DNA from: a virus
Strand: one strand, 5' to 3'
Virus record (IMG/VR): IMGVR_UViG_3300022851_000033
Coordinates: 1 to 40,975 of that record
DNA length: 40,975 bases
Made by a program: the position numbers and the translations under genes. Shown here piece after piece: positions 9,762 to 39,821 of this stretch. How positions within the stretch are numbered: position 1 is the first letter of the stretch; every line of letters starts with the position of its first letter. The notes below the pieces were generated by a model. It did not search any database and had not been told where the DNA came from. It saw only the letters and a list, made by a program, of their open reading frames with translations.

Positions 9762-9995
9762 TTATCTGGGTGAATATATTTCTTTTATTTTTGTAAAAAT
9801 CTTATCATCCAATAATCCCCGTTTCCTATATTTAAGTAATGTATCTGTAACTGCATCGTTTAATTGTTTACCCTCATGAAGAAATTTTATTTTTTTATCC
9901 ATCTCTTCACATATGGATTTTATTATTCCATTCCTTTTTTTCTTGGTTTCAACAAGTGCATCTATTTGCTCCTTAGTTACTATATATGTTTTCAT
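9762..9995 (-). CDS. Hypothetical small basic protein
   Basis: This 77-residue, Lys-rich, probably helical protein (MKTYIVTKEQIDALVETKKK at the start) has no known motif. Its start overlaps the stop of the nucleotidyltransferase-domain gene by 4 bp (ATGA type), so the pair is translationally coupled. Confidence 0.55.
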   Translation of the reverse strand: MKTYIVTKEQIDALVETKKKRNGIIKSICEEMDKKIKFLHEGKQLNDAVTDTLLKYRKRGLLDDKIFTKIKEIYSPR

Positions 9996-11284
9996 TTTCC
10001 AAAATAAGCTTTAACTCCGCTATCGATCCATTCTTTAGCTTGATTTATTATTTCATCAGCGATCCCAGCATCCTTAAGATCGTTAGAGGTATAGTCAGCA
10101 GCTAGTAACGCAACAACCATCCCTAATCCGACAGTACCCTTTTTTAGTTTATCCTTTAAACCACCCTCAGATAGATTTTCCAGTGTTAAATCTTGAGTTA
10201 GATTATTTTTCTTTATTTCCGAAATCTTTTCAAGATAACCACTTCTTCTAAGTAATTTAAATACAAGGTTTTCAACAGAGTATTCACCTTCTGATTGTAG
10301 ACCAGATTTTCTGTATTCACCCAATCTATCCATTAACTTATCTGCCTCAAGATTTGCAACTTCTGGGTCTTGTATATTTAGAAGCTCGTCAATTTCATTC
10401 ATGTAGTCAGATGCCTTTAATTGTATTGAAGGCATATCCAAATTAATCATTGTTTTCTGTGGTTTACTTGACCACTCATTATTAAAAATAGAATAAATAC
10501 CTGTAGATGAATGATCTTCAGAGGTATCCTGAGCATATAATTCAACAGGCAATCCCTTAACTCTAACTTCTTCTATTTTTTGGTTCCAGTTTCTTTTTTT
10601 CTCTCTAAAATAATCAGAAACAAATTCTCTATCACTTGAAATTTGACCAAAATCAAATAAAATATGAATATCTAAATCACTGTGTTCTGACCAATTGAAA
10701 TTAGCTATTGATCCAGTTAAAATAATATCTTTATATTCTACATCTTCTAGATTAGAATATTTAATAAACTCAAGAACGTTCTTTAAAAGAAATTTTCTAA
10801 CTTCTTCGTGCATATGTTGTTCTTCATCCCAAATCAATGGGTTAAGCTCATCCTTCATAGGTAAGCTAGTTACATCAATACTTTCAGGTTCAATAACCTC
10901 ACCTAAAAGCTCGGAAACTGACTTATCTGACCAAAATTTACTAGACCAGTATCTTGGTTTTTTAGTTTCATCATCTTTAGTTTCTATGTTTTTTTCACTA
11001 ATATTAGTTACTGAAGGTTTGTTAAAATCAACATCCTTACCGTCATATTCAGATTCATTAAGTGAGGTGTTCTTCGGAATAATTATTATATTATGTTTTG
11101 ACTTACATGTTAAGTTTTGGGTCTTAGTTTCATTTATAAATAAACCCATTGCTTTGTCAATCTCACTTCTAAAGTTTTTATGAAACTTCTCATCTAACTT
11201 TAAAATAAAGCTATTGTTATCTTCAGTTAGACTAAAGTTTTTTGTATATGACTCAGCAATTGCTTTAATTTTATTAATGTTCAT
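9992..11284 (-). CDS. Nucleotidyltransferase-fold protein with hydrophobic C-terminus
   Basis: This 430-residue protein has a pol-beta-type nucleotidyltransferase signature: ILTGSIANFNWSEHSDLDIH (188-207), i.e. the G-S helix turn and the D-x-D metal ligands. The roughly 150 residues before it are not recognised. Near the C-terminus GTVGLGMVVALLAADYTSN is a short hydrophobic segment. Substrate is unknown; similar minimal domains occur in phage virion operons and in toxin systems. Head-block position favours a virion-associated role. It is coupled to the 77-residue gene downstream. Confidence 0.7.
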   Translation of the reverse strand: MNINKIKAIAESYTKNFSLTEDNNSFILKLDEKFHKNFRSEIDKAMGLFINETKTQNLTCKSKHNIIIIPKNTSLNESEYDGKDVDFNKPSVTNISEKNIETKDDETKKPRYWSSKFWSDKSVSELLGEVIEPESIDVTSLPMKDELNPLIWDEEQHMHEEVRKFLLKNVLEFIKYSNLEDVEYKDIILTGSIANFNWSEHSDLDIHILFDFGQISSDREFVSDYFREKKRNWNQKIEEVRVKGLPVELYAQDTSEDHSSTGIYSIFNNEWSSKPQKTMINLDMPSIQLKASDYMNEIDELLNIQDPEVANLEADKLMDRLGEYRKSGLQSEGEYSVENLVFKLLRRSGYLEKISEIKKNNLTQDLTLENLSEGGLKDKLKKGTVGLGMVVALLAADYTSNDLKDAGIADEIINQAKEWIDSGVKAYFGK

Positions 11285-21511: not shown

Positions 21512-22708
21512 CTACCCACCTACACCAAGAGGTGATAGATGGGCTTCGGGTTTCACAGGATGTGCATTGCTAACAATGTCTGATTTTTCCTCCACCTTTG
21601 TAATGGCAAGTTCCTCACCATATATTTTTAATCCTTCTTTTAGAATATTGATACTTGCGTTTAAATCACGGTCTAATTTATGACCATTTTTGCAAGTCCA
21701 TTCTCTATCTGAAAGGTTTAAATCTTGATTTATATATCCACAAACATTGCAAGTTTTTGATGAAGGATACCAACGATTAATCTTAACAACAGTTTTATCG
21801 TTCCAATTTGCCTTGTATTCAACAAATCGAACAAATGTACCCCAACTTGCATCTGCAATATGTTTAGATAGTTTTCTATTTTTAATCATTCCTTTGATAT
21901 TCAAATCTTCAAGGCAAATTATATCATAATTAGATACAATATCGTTACTCACTTTATGTAATACATCTTGTCTTGTGTTTGCTATTTTCTCGTGAATTAA
22001 GGCAACTTTACGTTTTTGTTTTTCAAACATATTGCTACCTTTTGTTTTACGAGAAAGATGTTGTTGTGCTTTTTTTAATTGTCTTTCATATCTTTTTGTG
22101 TATCTATTGTTTTTGTATTTAATTCCATCAGAAGTGATTGCAAAGTCTTTAATTCCTAAATCTATTCCTATCGTTTTACCAGTTTTTTTGCTTGGTACAT
22201 ATTCTTGTTCAGTTAAAATGGAAACGAAATATTTACCTGTTGGTGTTTTAGATATTGTGAATTTACCTATTTCACCTTTAACTTCTCTATGAATATTTAC
22301 TTTAATACCACCCTTGAACTTTGGTGCATATATTCTATCATTAACTACTTTAGTATGTTGCGGTACTGTAAACGTATTCTTTTTACGTTTAGATTTAAAC
22401 TTTGGAAACATTGCATTTCCACGAAAGAAATTAACATAAGCAGTATCTAAACTTCTTAAAGCAAATTGCAAAGTTTGAGAATTAACTTCTTTTAACCAAA
22501 TAGTATCTTCTTTTTTCTTTAGTTCAGTTAAAGTTTTTGCTTGTCCGTAATAATTATCAGTTTTTTTATCTGCTTGATATTGTTCCTTTCTTTCGTTTAA
22601 AAAGTGATTGTAAATATATCTAACACAACCGAAGTGCTTATCCAATAAGGTTTTCTGTTCCTCATTAGGTAGTAATTCAAATTTATATGACCTATGTATA
22701 TTCTTCAC
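21512..22708 (-). CDS. tnpB: TnpB RNA-guided nuclease of IS605-type element A
   Basis: This 398-residue intact TnpB (OrfB) starts MKNIHRSYKFELLPNEEQ. RuvC residues: GIDLGIKDFA (181-190, Asp183), CLEDLN (265-270, Glu267) and DRDLN (346-350). The zinc ribbon has CNVC (320-323) and CKNGH (339-343). TnpB uses a guide RNA from the element's right end to cut DNA and so keep the element. The guide would be the flank beyond 21507, read on the minus strand. Length and motifs fit active family members. Confidence 0.93.
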   Translation of the reverse strand: MKNIHRSYKFELLPNEEQKTLLDKHFGCVRYIYNHFLNERKEQYQADKKTDNYYGQAKTLTELKKKEDTIWLKEVNSQTLQFALRSLDTAYVNFFRGNAMFPKFKSKRKKNTFTVPQHTKVVNDRIYAPKFKGGIKVNIHREVKGEIGKFTISKTPTGKYFVSILTEQEYVPSKKTGKTIGIDLGIKDFAITSDGIKYKNNRYTKRYERQLKKAQQHLSRKTKGSNMFEKQKRKVALIHEKIANTRQDVLHKVSNDIVSNYDIICLEDLNIKGMIKNRKLSKHIADASWGTFVRFVEYKANWNDKTVVKINRWYPSSKTCNVCGYINQDLNLSDREWTCKNGHKLDRDLNASINILKEGLKIYGEELAITKVEEKSDIVSNAHPVKPEAHLSPLGVGG

Positions 22709-22855: not shown

Positions 22856-23260
22856 ATGCAATCAAATTACATTTCTACAAATCATTCAAAACATTACTTA
22901 AAAGCACATATCATTTTAGTTACTAAATATCGTAAACCATTATTGGTTAATCAACTTAAACAAGATATGTACACAATATTCAACAATATTATAGATAACT
23001 CAGATTTTAGCGTAGAAGTATTCGAGAGTGATATTAATCACATACATTTTCTAATCCGTTACATACCACGTCTTTCAATCTCTCAAATAGTTCGTAGGTT
23101 AAAACAACAATCTACTAAACATATTTGGCTACTACACCCAGCATTACTTCGTAGAGAGTACTGGTAGAAAAATATGTTTTGGAGTTCTGGTTACTTCGTT
23201 TGTTCAATCGGTGAAGCATCCCCAGATACCATTCGTCAATATATTTTAAGTCAAGGTTAA
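22856..23260 (+). pseudogene. tnpA: TnpA Y1 transposase interrupted by an amber codon
   Basis: The reading frame runs 134 codons with TAG at 23165-23167, codon 104, where AAG (Lys) is expected after RREYW. HUH-motif HIHFLI (about residues 61-66) is kept. The catalytic Tyr lies in TIRQYILSQG, after the stop, so the truncated product cannot cleave DNA. TAG is used as a normal stop elsewhere in this window (portal, the first retropepsin), so recoding is unlikely. Confidence 0.85.
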
Positions 23261-23300: not shown

Positions 23301-23816
23301 ATGAGTGAGTTTTACGCTCCGATTTATAAAAAAATTATTAATGTTAATGAGAATGATCGAATGCTGGAAAAAATTTATCCAGTGTATGGTTTAGATTATA
23401 AACCGAAACCAATAAGAATTTTTATTGATAGTTTTGGAGGTGTGGTTTATGTATTATTAGGGACTATTGGGTTAATTCAACAAAGCAAAACACCAGTTCA
23501 CACTATCGGTATGGGAGCAGCAATGTCATGTGGATTCCTTTTATTAATATGTGGTCATAAAAGATTTATGACAAAAGAAGCAACCATTATGTATCATCAA
23601 ATTTCTGCTGGAAATTTAGGTAGTATTAAAGAACTTGAGGAGAATTTGGAGCAACTTCAGTTCCTTCAACATAAGATTGAAGAAATGACAATTAAATACA
23701 CCGATATCAGTAAAAATAAACTACAGAAAGTTCGTAAAAAGAAATTCGATTGGTATATTAATGTTGAAGAAGCCTTAAAACATGGGATGGTTGATGAAAT
23801 TTTTAAAATGAACTAA
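23301..23816 (+). CDS. clpP: ClpP-like serine protease with start codon inside the IS605-type left end
   Basis: This 171-residue ClpP/SppA-fold protease has IRIFIDSFGG (39-47), the catalytic Ser76 in GAAMSCG, His99 in MYHQIS and a candidate Asp150 in KKFDWYINVEEAL. ClpP peptidases degrade unfolded or tagged proteins with a Clp ATPase. The first 7-8 residues (MSEFYAP) are encoded by the IS left-end hairpin, so the original N-terminus was probably replaced. Length is near the low end for ClpP. Possible roles are prohead protease-like maturation or degradation of tagged proteins. Confidence 0.82.
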   Translation: MSEFYAPIYKKIINVNENDRMLEKIYPVYGLDYKPKPIRIFIDSFGGVVYVLLGTIGLIQQSKTPVHTIGMGAAMSCGFLLLICGHKRFMTKEATIMYHQISAGNLGSIKELEENLEQLQFLQHKIEEMTIKYTDISKNKLQKVRKKKFDWYINVEEALKHGMVDEIFKMN

Positions 23817-25797: not shown

Positions 25798-26153
25798 TGG
25801 AAAGTAACACTAAACCATGTGATGGAATCTATGGTAGTTCTTGTAATAAGAATAATAAATGTAATTATCCTGACTGTAAAACAATTGAGCAGATTCTTAA
25901 GGATTATTGCTCATTAGATATAAGGGGTGGTCAGAGACTAGATAATGATATTTTTAATGATTATCTAGTTAGTACGACAGAACCTTATTGGGTTTGTATT
26001 GATTGTTCCATAGATAGAAATGCAGATTTTCCTAAAGGTCATCAATACACTATACACCCTGATGAGTGCGGTATTTGCTTAGAAAAGAAACAGGTAACTC
26101 AACCAAGAGATTTGGGGTTAGATAGATATAAAATAAGAGTAATTAATGAGTAG
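25797..26153 (+). CDS. Cys-rich hypothetical protein
   Basis: A 118-residue protein with cysteines spaced as in small zinc-binding domains: CDGIYGSSC, CNYPDC, later CIDC and CGIC. Coupled to the helicase (TAATG overlap) and overlapping the methyltransferase start by 8 bp. Role unknown. Confidence 0.55.
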   Translation: MESNTKPCDGIYGSSCNKNNKCNYPDCKTIEQILKDYCSLDIRGGQRLDNDIFNDYLVSTTEPYWVCIDCSIDRNADFPKGHQYTIHPDECGICLEKKQVTQPRDLGLDRYKIRVINE

Positions 26154-27165
26154 TATTATTCAAAATAAATCCTATTGGGAAAACATGGATGATGTTTCTC
26201 TTAATAATTATGCTGAAGAAATATTTAATCACTATAGACTAATCGGTTTCCCGTATTATTCTCTATCCTTCGAAGAAAAACTAAAAGACTATAGGAAAAC
26301 AGAAAAATATCTCTTAGAAAAAAATCTAATCGAAGATAAATCAGTAAAACAAACTATGCACCTATTGGGTGTTGCTTGGAATTATTTTCCACATGCATTC
26401 GATGTAAAATGTGGGAATAAAAGAACACCAATAGAAGTCTTTAATGATGATGAACTCTTTATGAAAGCAATAAAGAAAAGACTTAAGCATGGTACATATA
26501 TTAGCGATTCTGGGATTAGAAAAATATTGAGAATTTATTCAAATACTCAATCAGTAAGTAACTTTAGACCAACGGCTGCAACAGCCATTTATGATCATTT
26601 TTTGACTGATAATGAGTCGATTGTGTTGGATATGTCTGGTGGTTGGGGTGGTAGGATGTTAGGTGCATCATTATCACCCAAGGTTGGTAAATATATTTAT
26701 TGTGAACCATCAACTAAAACATATAGTGGACTTGGTTGTTTATCATCCTTTCTTTCTTTTGTAAATCCTAATTTTAAAACAATGGGATATGAACTAGGGA
26801 GTGAAGACTTGATTCTAGAGGATAGTTCTTTAGACCTATGTTTTACCTCACCACCATATTTTGACTTAGAGAAATACTCAACTGAAGATACACAAAGCTT
26901 TATTAAGTACCCAACAATTAAAAAATGGTCAGAAGGTTTTTTAAGAAAAACAATAGAGAATTGTTTTTCTGCACTGAAAAACAACAAATATATGGTCATA
27001 AATATAGCAGACCCATCGAGAGGTGGGTATAGTATCGTAGATGAAACCATTAAATTTGCAAAAGAAAGTGGTTTTGAGTATATTGACGAATATAAATTGG
27101 TATTATCTAACTTGAATAAGAGTAATTTTAAATATGAGCCAATTTTAATATTTAAAAAGAGATAA
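26146..27165 (+). CDS. DNA amino-methyltransferase (N4/N6 type)
   Basis: This 339-residue SAM-dependent enzyme has the SAM-binding motif I region LDMSGGWGGR (161-170) and a catalytic motif TSPPYFDLE (234-242), of the (D/N/S)PPY class that methylates the exocyclic amine of adenine or cytosine. The motif order (SAM site first) and a helical N-terminal domain of about 140 residues are visible. A Mom-like gene follows after 5 bp, suggesting a DNA-modification cassette that protects phage DNA. There is no restriction gene here. Confidence 0.8.
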   Translation: MSSIIQNKSYWENMDDVSLNNYAEEIFNHYRLIGFPYYSLSFEEKLKDYRKTEKYLLEKNLIEDKSVKQTMHLLGVAWNYFPHAFDVKCGNKRTPIEVFNDDELFMKAIKKRLKHGTYISDSGIRKILRIYSNTQSVSNFRPTAATAIYDHFLTDNESIVLDMSGGWGGRMLGASLSPKVGKYIYCEPSTKTYSGLGCLSSFLSFVNPNFKTMGYELGSEDLILEDSSLDLCFTSPPYFDLEKYSTEDTQSFIKYPTIKKWSEGFLRKTIENCFSALKNNKYMVINIADPSRGGYSIVDETIKFAKESGFEYIDEYKLVLSNLNKSNFKYEPILIFKKR

Positions 27166-27170
27166 TAGTA

Positions 27171-27941
27171 ATGGATGCCCATCAATATATTAGAAGACTC
27201 GAAACCCAAGCCAGAGACTTAGCCCAAGGCAATAGTTATTGGGAGACATTAGACCTTGATCTTAAAAATTCAGTAGTTAAAGAAATCGATTTAAAGACCG
27301 CTAGAGAGATCATTGAGGAATATGAGTACTTAGGTTGTGTTGCTGCTGTAAACTGGCACCAGTACGGCATATTTTTCGTTGACAAGGCTACAAATGAAGA
27401 GGTTTGTGGTGGTGTTGTAATCTTTGGTCAAGAATATGCTGAAAATAGAGGTGTTTGGGATAAATACGATTTTACTGGTAATATTATACTATTAAACAGA
27501 GGAGTTTGTTTGCATTGGGCACCCATCAATACCAATAGTAAATTAATAATGGATGCAATCAAACAACTACCACCTAAATATGAGGTGATTACATGTACTA
27601 TTGATCCAGATGCTGGTGAGATTGGCACAATATATCAAGCATGTAATTTTCATTATGTTGGTGTACTAAGAAAAAACAAAAAGAGACTTAACTTCGTTAT
27701 TAATGGTAAGAAATATGGGTCTAGATCAATAAGACAAAAATATGGAACCATGTCTAAAAAACTTTTACCTGATTTAGTTAAAGAAAAATTAGGTAAAGAT
27801 GCAACAATTGAGTTTGTTGAGGTTCACTCAAAAGGAAGGTATTTCTATTTTAACTGTAATAAGAGGAAATCCAGATATTATAGAAATAAAATAAAAGATA
27901 TTATTAAACCATATCAAAAAAGAGACGAATGCCAGATGTAA
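27171..27941 (+). CDS. Mom-like DNA adenine modification protein
   Basis: This 256-residue protein has a GNAT-like core. DAGEIGTIYQACNFHYVG (about residues 145-162) matches the signature of the phage Mu Mom family and relatives. Upstream are AAVNWHQYGIFFV and NRGVCLHWAPINTNSKLI, in the usual order. Mom carbamoylmethylates adenine to block restriction. The basic C-terminus (NKRKSRYYRNKIKDIIKPYQ) fits DNA contact. It overlaps the next gene by 13 bp. Confidence 0.72.
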   Translation: MDAHQYIRRLETQARDLAQGNSYWETLDLDLKNSVVKEIDLKTAREIIEEYEYLGCVAAVNWHQYGIFFVDKATNEEVCGGVVIFGQEYAENRGVWDKYDFTGNIILLNRGVCLHWAPINTNSKLIMDAIKQLPPKYEVITCTIDPDAGEIGTIYQACNFHYVGVLRKNKKRLNFVINGKKYGSRSIRQKYGTMSKKLLPDLVKEKLGKDATIEFVEVHSKGRYFYFNCNKRKSRYYRNKIKDIIKPYQKRDECQM

Positions 27942-34157: not shown

Positions 34158-35513
34158 GTGAACTACCCACCCACGGCAGAGCCGATGGGTTGGGCTTCGG
34201 AAGTCGCAGACTCACCTAATGGCAACGCCTTATTCCGTTTTTGTTTTTTATCCGACTGTATTCCACAACCAGATATTATATTTAATCCTTGTTTAAGTAT
34301 ATTTTTACTTGCATTCAAATCTCTATCGTGAGTTTCATTGCAACTATCACAAGTCCATTCTCTATGTTTCAATTCTAAATCTTGTTTAATCCAACCACAA
34401 GTTGAACACGTCTTAGATGATGGAAACCATCTATCTATTTTAACATATTCTTTGTCGTTCCATTTAGATTTATATTCTAACATAGTGTAAAATGTACCCC
34501 AACTAACATCAGATATTGCTTGTGCTAATTTGTGATTCTTCATCATACCTTTTACATTCAAATCTTCTACTACTATTATGTCGTGGTTTTTGACAATTTC
34601 AGTAGATATTTTATGTAAATAATCCGTTCTTATATTTGTTATATTTTCATATATAACTCCAAGTTTTTGTTTTTGTTTATTTCTTGATTCACTACCTTTT
34701 ATTTTTTTAGATAATTGCCTTTGGTTATATTTTAACTTCTTTAATTTAGTTTTAAGTGGTTTAATATTTTCATATACCTTTCTATCAGACAGTATTGCAA
34801 AATCTTTAATACCTACATCAATGCCAACTGATGTTTTGGTTTTAGAATAAGGTTGGTAGTTTTCTTCACAAGTAACAGATACATAATATTTACCAGTTGT
34901 ATTTTTACTTATCGTAGCAAATAATATCTTGCCTTTAATTTCTCTATGAACCTTTACTTTAATTCCACTTTTAAATTTAGGTATTACCAAAGTGTTTTCT
35001 TCAATGAATACATTTTGAGGTATTTTAAAACTCTGTTTATTATATTTTGATTTAAACTTTGGAAATTTATTTTGTTTATTAAAAAAGTTTTATATGCACT
35101 ATCTAAATTTCTAATAGCAGATTGTAAAGATTGTGAATTAACTTCCTTTAACCACTCAGTACCTTCTTCTTTTTTTAATTGAGTTAAACTATTGGCATTA
35201 TCATAATAATTCAAAGAAGTCTTATCATTCAAATACTGTTCTTTACGAACATTTAAGAAATGGTTAAATACAAATCTTGAACACCCAAAATGTTTAGACA
35301 TAAGAGTTTCTTGCTCCTTTGTCGGGTAAATCCTAAATTTATATGACCTATGTATTTCTTTCATCTATTATTAGATACTCTAATATTTTGTAAAGTTACA
35401 ATTATTTTACAAATAGTAAAGGTTTTTGTAAATATATTTTAAGTCAAGGTTAATCATTACCTTTGTCGCTTACATCCCACCAACGCAAAAGCGATTAGTG
35501 GGTTTTACGCTTG
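34158..35513 (-). mobile_element. IS200/IS605-family element, copy B (tnpA deleted, tnpB frameshifted)
   Basis: Right end GTGAACTACCC at 34158, left-end hairpin at about 35465-35513 ending TTTTACGCTT. Upstream of tnpB the sequence GTAAAGGTTTTTGTAAATAT leads straight into the last codons of tnpA (AGTCAAGGTTAATC), with AATATATTTTAA at the joint. The whole front of tnpA is deleted. It is therefore non-autonomous. Confidence 0.87.
34163..35364 (-). pseudogene. tnpB: TnpB of copy B, split by a one-base deletion
   Basis: The start at 35364 gives 126 codons that go out of frame near 35081-35086 (a run of six A on the plus strand). The second part, 34163-34990, carries RuvC residues in GIDVGIKDFA, VVEDLNVKGM and HDRDLNASKN, plus CSTC/CDSC zinc pairs. 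Restoring one base gives a continuous match to copy A (AYKTFFNKQNKFPKFKSK). It is either a real mutation or a homopolymer error. Confidence 0.85.
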
Positions 35514-39476: not shown

Positions 39477-39509
39477 TACCAATGAATTAGAATACTTCTA
39501 TAAAAGAGA

Positions 39510-39522
39510 AGTATTTATATAA
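39510..39522 (+). promoter_or_regulatory. Putative late promoter of the tmRNA gene
   Basis: AGTATTTATATAA, identical to the core upstream of 2543. It overlaps the right arm of an 8-bp hairpin (39491-39498 with 39508-39515) and lies 8 bp before the first proposed tmRNA pairing. Confidence 0.55.
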
Positions 39523-39527
39523 TATAA

Positions 39528-39729
39528 CATACTAGGTGATTCTTTTATTGAAATCATGTAACACTTGGGTTCGAATCCCAACAGCTCCACAAGTATAATA
39601 TATGGGGTTGAATGGACTTGACTACATGTTAGTAGGAACTGATGATAGTTTGTTAGAATGTCTATAAATGGCGAAACTTTAAAAATGGCTGCGTAAGCAC
39701 CAACGGGGATAGGTACTAGGTATCTATCC
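39528..39729 (+). ncRNA. ssrA: Circularly permuted (two-piece) tmRNA candidate
   Basis: T-arm TTGGG-TTCGAAT-CCCAA (39565-39581) and acceptor 3' strand CAGCTCC-A (39582-39589) lie upstream of the 5' acceptor GGGGTTG (39604-39610), with a 14-nt spacer. All seven acceptor pairs form, and pair 3 is G-U, the alanine identity pair. TACATG/CATGTA (39623-39628 with 39555-39560) and TAGTA/TACTA (39630-39634 with 39530-39534) form a P2-like helix. A tag frame GGC..TAA (39670-39696) encodes GETLKMAA. A D-analogue GGACTTGAC follows the acceptor. The order (acceptor piece first, coding piece second, terminator last) is that of permuted tmRNAs in alphaproteobacteria and some cyanobacteria. Confidence 0.75.
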
Positions 39730-39738
39730 TTTTTTTTT
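39707..39738 (+). terminator. Terminator of the tmRNA gene
   Basis: GGATAGGTAC-TAG-GTATCTATCC followed by a run of T. It lies 11 bp after the tag stop codon. Confidence 0.88.
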
Positions 39739-39821
39739 GTTTTAAAAACAATTCCACTATTTTTGCGTATAGTTATATAAAAAGAACAATAATAAGATCA
39801 ATCCCAATTAAAGATTTAAAG

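Follow-up and report, generated by a model that had tools for sequence, protein, structure and literature searches.

The question raised by this locus is whether a gene at the end of a viral metagenomic contig encodes a working tmRNA in permuted order and, if so, how a phage came to carry it. A tmRNA rescues stalled ribosomes and adds a tag to the incomplete proteins. The window (the whole stretch of DNA analysed, 40,975 bases, IMG/VR record IMGVR_UViG_3300022851_000033) contains a circularly permuted tmRNA gene at 39,530–39,738 on the plus strand, in which the tRNA-like 3′ half lies upstream of the 5′ half and the tag. Its elements follow in the order P2-type strand, T-arm, 3′ acceptor strand with A73, spacer, 5′ acceptor strand, D-like region, other P2 strand, eight-codon tag frame, stop-codon hairpin and intrinsic terminator.

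Between the stop codon of the upstream ORF and the tmRNA lies a 9 bp hairpin (AATACTTCT / AGAAGTATT, 39491–39515, plus strand like all elements described here, from sequence and fold). The 3′ piece starts with a tentative P2c strand ACUA (39531–39534, from the alignment to model R1, described below), which pairs with UAGU at 39646–39649, and continues with the P2a strand CAUGUA (39555–39560), which pairs with TACATG at 39623–39628 and occupies the site of the covarying P2a of the relatives. The T-arm (39565–39581; ARAGORN, Rfam and R1) has a 5 bp stem TTGGG/CCCAA and the loop TTCGAAT and is followed by the 3′ acceptor strand CAGCTCC (39582–39588), which contains U70, and by A73 at 39589 (sequence, Rfam and R1). 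The 14 nt spacer (39590–39603), which would be removed by processing, starts with CAA directly after A73, so that CCA is not encoded; the 3′-terminal CCA is also absent from all 13 inspected tRNAs of the window. The 5′ acceptor strand GGGGTTG (39604–39610) leads into the D-like region AATGGACTTGAC, which ends at 39622 (sequence, Rfam, relatives and R1). The acceptor stem formed across both pieces has 7/7 pairs, including G3–U70, as the first-pass annotation had described.

The P2 strands of the 5′ piece lie within 39623–39649 and were assigned by R1 and the covariation of the relatives. The P2-like pairing across the pieces that had been proposed thus corresponds to a 6 bp P2a in the expected place, with weaker P2b and P2c. 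P2 is short in the window, and unconstrained folding of the region favours local hairpins over P2a. No clear pseudoknot was seen for PK1, and a possible hairpin at 39639–39656, upstream of the tag, competes with P2c. The tag reading frame GETLKMAA-stop (39670–39696) was recognized by ARAGORN together with its resume-site consensus. It overlaps the H5 hairpin TGG(C)TGC-GTAA-GCACCA (39686–39702), which holds the stop codon inside its loop, and the terminator expected after the tag is present at 39705–39738, with a 12-pair stem (39705–39731) before a T run (one found against 0.2 expected in shuffles).

ARAGORN called a permuted tmRNA (tmRNA*) with the tag GETLKMAA at 39499–39787 and made no tmRNA call in 20.5 Mb of control sequence, obtained by shuffling the window 500 times with its dinucleotides preserved. 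In a check against Rfam, as had been suggested, tmRNA_permuted (RF04321) scored 44.9 bits (E = 1.6e-7 in 901 bases and 1.7e-9 for the record), which is 2.1 bits under the gathering threshold of 47 bits, a curation limit and no biological feature. A covariance model, R1, which draws on 18 further permuted tmRNAs of phages and not on the window, recovered the gene with 59.8 bits (E = 1.4e-15). Of its 29 pairs the window retains 26, and the three lost pairs are all in P2b. R1 also gives 43–70 bits to several other permuted tmRNAs and is therefore better proof of tmRNA nature than of close kinship. With the ARAGORN call, the R1 match and every named element in place, the first-pass reading of a phage-borne circularly permuted tmRNA with its own tag was borne out.

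A standard one-piece gene was rejected. RF00023 reached only 24.9 bits (cut-off 47), by matching the T-arm together with a GGGG that occurs by chance in the ORF upstream. A standard 3′ half, which would have spoken against permutation, was looked for after the tag with ARAGORN and Rfam searches and was not found, nor was a one-piece tmRNA found elsewhere in the window. The upstream GGGGCTAA, considered as a standard 5′ acceptor strand, is the end of an ORF and was likewise rejected.

The gene is not unique; that notion was refuted by pattern scans of IMG/VR, which returned at least about 200 permuted tmRNAs and showed them to be common in viral contigs. Among the matches listed, most are of alpha, beta or cyano appearance. 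The markers of the window recur in a separate set, namely U-U-GAC (C being usual there), a D region shorter by one base and, usually, a missing CCA; the tags of this set are such as GEQVEMAMAA and GEQVELAMAA. Eighteen permuted tmRNAs of this GEQVE type were aligned without the window (alignment A1). They form an acceptor stem, a T-stem and a three-part P2 helix between the pieces, with standard pairs in 96.3% of pair cells; this proportion drops to 44–51% in slid control structures. Double changes occur at 13 pairs, in 64 cells against 17.7 in shuffled data (0/500), and G3–U70 is invariant throughout, so that the covariance in related phages for which a search had been proposed is strong in the acceptor, T-stem and P2. 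The H5 hairpin, whose loop encloses the stop codon, is laid out alike in the window and in 23 relatives. The window and the GEQVE type also have in common a GE…MAA tag and, in some members, GCACC..AACGG shortly after the stop codon; they differ in that the GEQVE-type tag has ten residues and the window tag eight, that their P2 is stronger and that the TerL of their phages is only about 35% identical. In five GEQVE-type loci (L300, L355, L123, L298 and L341) the tag frame apparently runs on or has a long insertion, with no short tag.

The gene is very probably a functional phage-encoded two-piece tmRNA that depends on host SmpB and adds a host-like degradation tag. From its anatomy and from work on bacterial permuted tmRNAs (reviewed in PMC3968760 and PMC3978253) we infer the following course. 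A single transcript would comprise the P2 3′ strand, T-arm and 3′ acceptor, the 14 nt spacer, and then the 5′ acceptor, D-like region, P2 5′ strand, tag, H5 and terminator. The spacer would be excised by RNase P and 3′-end processing, CCA would be added by the host, and the two RNAs would be held together by the acceptor and P2 helices. Host AlaRS would charge the product through G3–U70 and A73; with host SmpB and EF-Tu it would enter ribosomes that have stalled, add (A)GETLKMAA and set them free, and the –MAA end would send the product to Clp protease. A search of 16 phage records, the window among them, turned up no SmpB gene, so host SmpB would be needed. If the gene is expressed in this way, the likely benefit would be that ribosomes are kept usable and broken products are cleared during infection.

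A decayed relic or a decoy, in which a tmRNA-like fold would compete with the host tmRNA without tagging, is an improbable reading. The short P2, the ill-defined PK1 and the sub-threshold RF04321 score agree with it, and there is a precedent in phage DS6A, whose CDS-less tmRNA was reported as a competitor of host tmRNA (quoted in PMC11915505). Against it, the tag frame, H5 with its stop codon, G3–U70, A73 and terminator are all intact in the window, and the related family maintains tag and helices with covariation. An assembly artefact, that is, a tandem or rearranged one-piece tmRNA misjoined into permuted order, is very improbable. The region is known from one metagenomic contig because the near-identical record G002 ends near window position 23 kb, and sister phages (below) have one-piece genes; yet the same order recurs in independent contigs and in cultured phages, the terminator follows directly after H5 and no leftover one-piece half lies nearby. 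Chance resemblance of a tRNA fragment beside an unrelated short frame, to which only the RF04321 shortfall would lend itself, is hardly credible in view of the shuffled controls and the R1 E value.

The host is probably a Bacteroidota bacterium, and the Bacteroidetes-type phage assumed in the first-pass annotation is thus likely. The TnpB of an IS605 element in the window is 72–75% identical to copies from Algoriphagus and Sphingobacterium, and also to those of two MAGs of other phyla; the portal protein has Flavobacterium phages among its relatives; and the tag resembles a shortened version of Bacteroidota host tags (GEENYALAA, GENNYAMAA and GEESYAMAA). CCA is often absent from Bacteroidota host tmRNAs as well. 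The idea that a phage tmRNA might change the degradation tag is weakened: with the GE start and MAA end kept, the tag looks like that of the host and does not depart from it, and these predicted ends argue for ordinary degradation over a changed fate of the product.

One-piece tmRNAs were found in 60 of 61 Bacteroidota genomes searched. Among 297 genomes a single permuted match passed the Rfam cut-off, and it lies in a Bacteroidota prophage (G277:C1:986035-986308; L249, L356, L357) beside tRNA-Met and tRNA-Ile, with the tag GKVIQMNNAPVRLAA; genes for a polymerase, a helicase, rIIA/rIIB-like proteins and an integrase surround it, and a different contig of the same genome carries the host's own one-piece tmRNA. 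Chryseobacterium phage MA9V-3 (PV245944) and crAss-like phage cr50_1 (MT774375) likewise have permuted tmRNAs, which are annotated only as SsrA and whose tags (GNVIDINKYVAKLEVAA and GNNFVTDYTAIGA) differ from that of the window.

TerL relatives at about 50% identity sit on contigs of up to 371 kb, so the window is likely to be one piece of a large phage genome. RF04321, a DNA pattern and R1 were run on 39 TerL-related records and found no permuted tmRNA in any of them, returning only tRNAs or weak chance matches; in five of the 39, a one-piece tmRNA passes the Rfam cut-off, with four distinct tmRNAs. Their tags are unusually long, with 28–30 residues, in G031, G012 and G017 (L088, L089, L091; for example AEDIMSIPTSLTRGKAVFARNTELALAA) and have eight residues in G039 (EAEMLMAA). 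These sister jumbo phages share U-U-GAC and the missing CCA with the window, whereas their genes have the standard order and a different site relative to the flanking genes held in common. Exact synteny was not found: the same flanking genes (phrog_4243-like and methylase-like) are present in the window, but the tmRNA lies 24 kb from the phrog_4243-like gene. Since those of the nearest TerL relatives that have a tmRNA carry the one-piece form and the window the permuted one, tmRNA form differs among related phages. Searches with the neighbouring 297-residue protein found no near relatives, and the structural relative Microcystis phage Mel-JY01 gave no tmRNA by ARAGORN or R1. In G017 (G017:C1:43249-43298, L368) a T-arm, UAUCCCCACCA, a spacer and UUGGGGAUA place acceptor-like strands in permuted order, without an ARAGORN gene call.

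Permuted tmRNA has been described from three cellular lineages and organelles, and from phages tied to those. The gene in the window was either acquired or made in place. It is possible, though doubtful, that it was transferred from a carrier of a known permuted lineage (alpha, beta or cyano) and that only the tag was adapted to Bacteroidota. In a tree of the tRNA-like domain and P2 (132 columns) the window neighbours the alpha-type phage sequence L002 (93/81), on long branches; AU tests rejected none of the groupings or placements tested, alpha, beta and cyano included, and all permuted forms as one group stand at p = 0.254. Against transfer, the missing CCA, U-U-GAC, Bacteroidota-type tag and GCACC..AACGG fit other Bacteroidota-linked phage forms and are unlike most alpha, beta and cyano types. 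We put forward tentatively, as a minority prospect, that Bacteroidota phages hold a fourth independent permuted origin, from a one-piece phage tmRNA inside phage genomes, and that in some of these phages a ClpP-like peptidase could supply the last step of a tag-and-degrade pathway run by the phage; the route might be tandem duplication of a one-piece phage tmRNA followed by loss of the outer halves. Were a fourth origin true, nearly all hosts and the closest sister phages would have kept the one-piece form.

A two-piece tmRNA in a Bacteroidetes-type phage had been thought unprecedented, which does not hold: MA9V-3, cr50_1 and the Bacteroidota prophage carry permuted tmRNAs, and two-piece forms from phages have been published. 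Methylophage Melnitz and related marine phages carry them (PMC9004378, published in 2022), of 133 unique tmRNA structures from phages, 53 had been classed as two-piece in 2021 (PMC9004378), and a 2025 tmRNA database holds 79 phage sequences (PMC11915505). The tmRNAs of Melnitz and the window are both phage-borne and permuted, without a one-piece counterpart in the phage, but the Melnitz gene belongs to the alphaproteobacterial type and comes with a glutamine riboswitch (PMC9004378), and Rfam searches found no riboswitch near the gene of the window. With RF04321 and the alpha, beta and cyano forms (RF01849–RF01851) the window shares gene order, the G3–U70 acceptor, T-arm, P2 across the pieces, a tag ending in Ala-Ala and apparently reduced pseudoknots; it differs in its probable Bacteroidota phage, unencoded CCA, Bacteroidota-type tag and short P2. 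In the main texts of the open-licence literature no description of a permuted tmRNA from Bacteroidota phages was found, and that of MA9V-3 was published simply as SsrA. The tmRNA gene of the window is thus genuine. It belongs to a known class, its lineage and form lack a description in the literature searched, and it is one of many phage permuted tmRNA genes, most of them apparently unremarked so far.

The most useful results are the form difference between related phages and the covariation-supported, Bacteroidota-linked group of phage permuted tmRNAs. The permuted form is spread over phages linked to a phylum in whose sampled cells the one-piece tmRNA is the rule, and the difference among related phages makes it testable, in fast-evolving genomes, why and how often a tmRNA splits. 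For annotators, this is a group that a curated Rfam threshold can narrowly miss.

A ClpP-like peptidase (23301–23816, plus strand; PF00574, 88.4 bits) with apparent Ser, His and Asp catalytic residues, read by eye, is a candidate partner, and ClpP homologues are present in seven of 24 records carrying related permuted tmRNAs, a few kilobases from the tmRNA in several contigs. A shared tag-and-degrade pathway is possible. Some ClpP-like phage proteins are head proteases, but Mel-JY01 has, besides its ClpP-like gene, a prohead protease that is annotated separately. In MA9V-3 an annotated ClpX also lies near the tmRNA. The window further contains a 430-residue protein (9992–11284, minus strand) of a PHROG without assigned function, with a weak nucleotidyltransferase match (polymerase-beta or poly(A) polymerase type); an IS605-type element (TnpB and Y1 transposase) together with a further copy of TnpB, which is split (21512–22708, minus; 22856–23167, plus; 34163–35364, minus); and a Mom-like DNA modification gene (27171–27941, plus strand; PF25680, 79 bits), which adjoins an N6/N4 methylase-like gene at 26146–27165.
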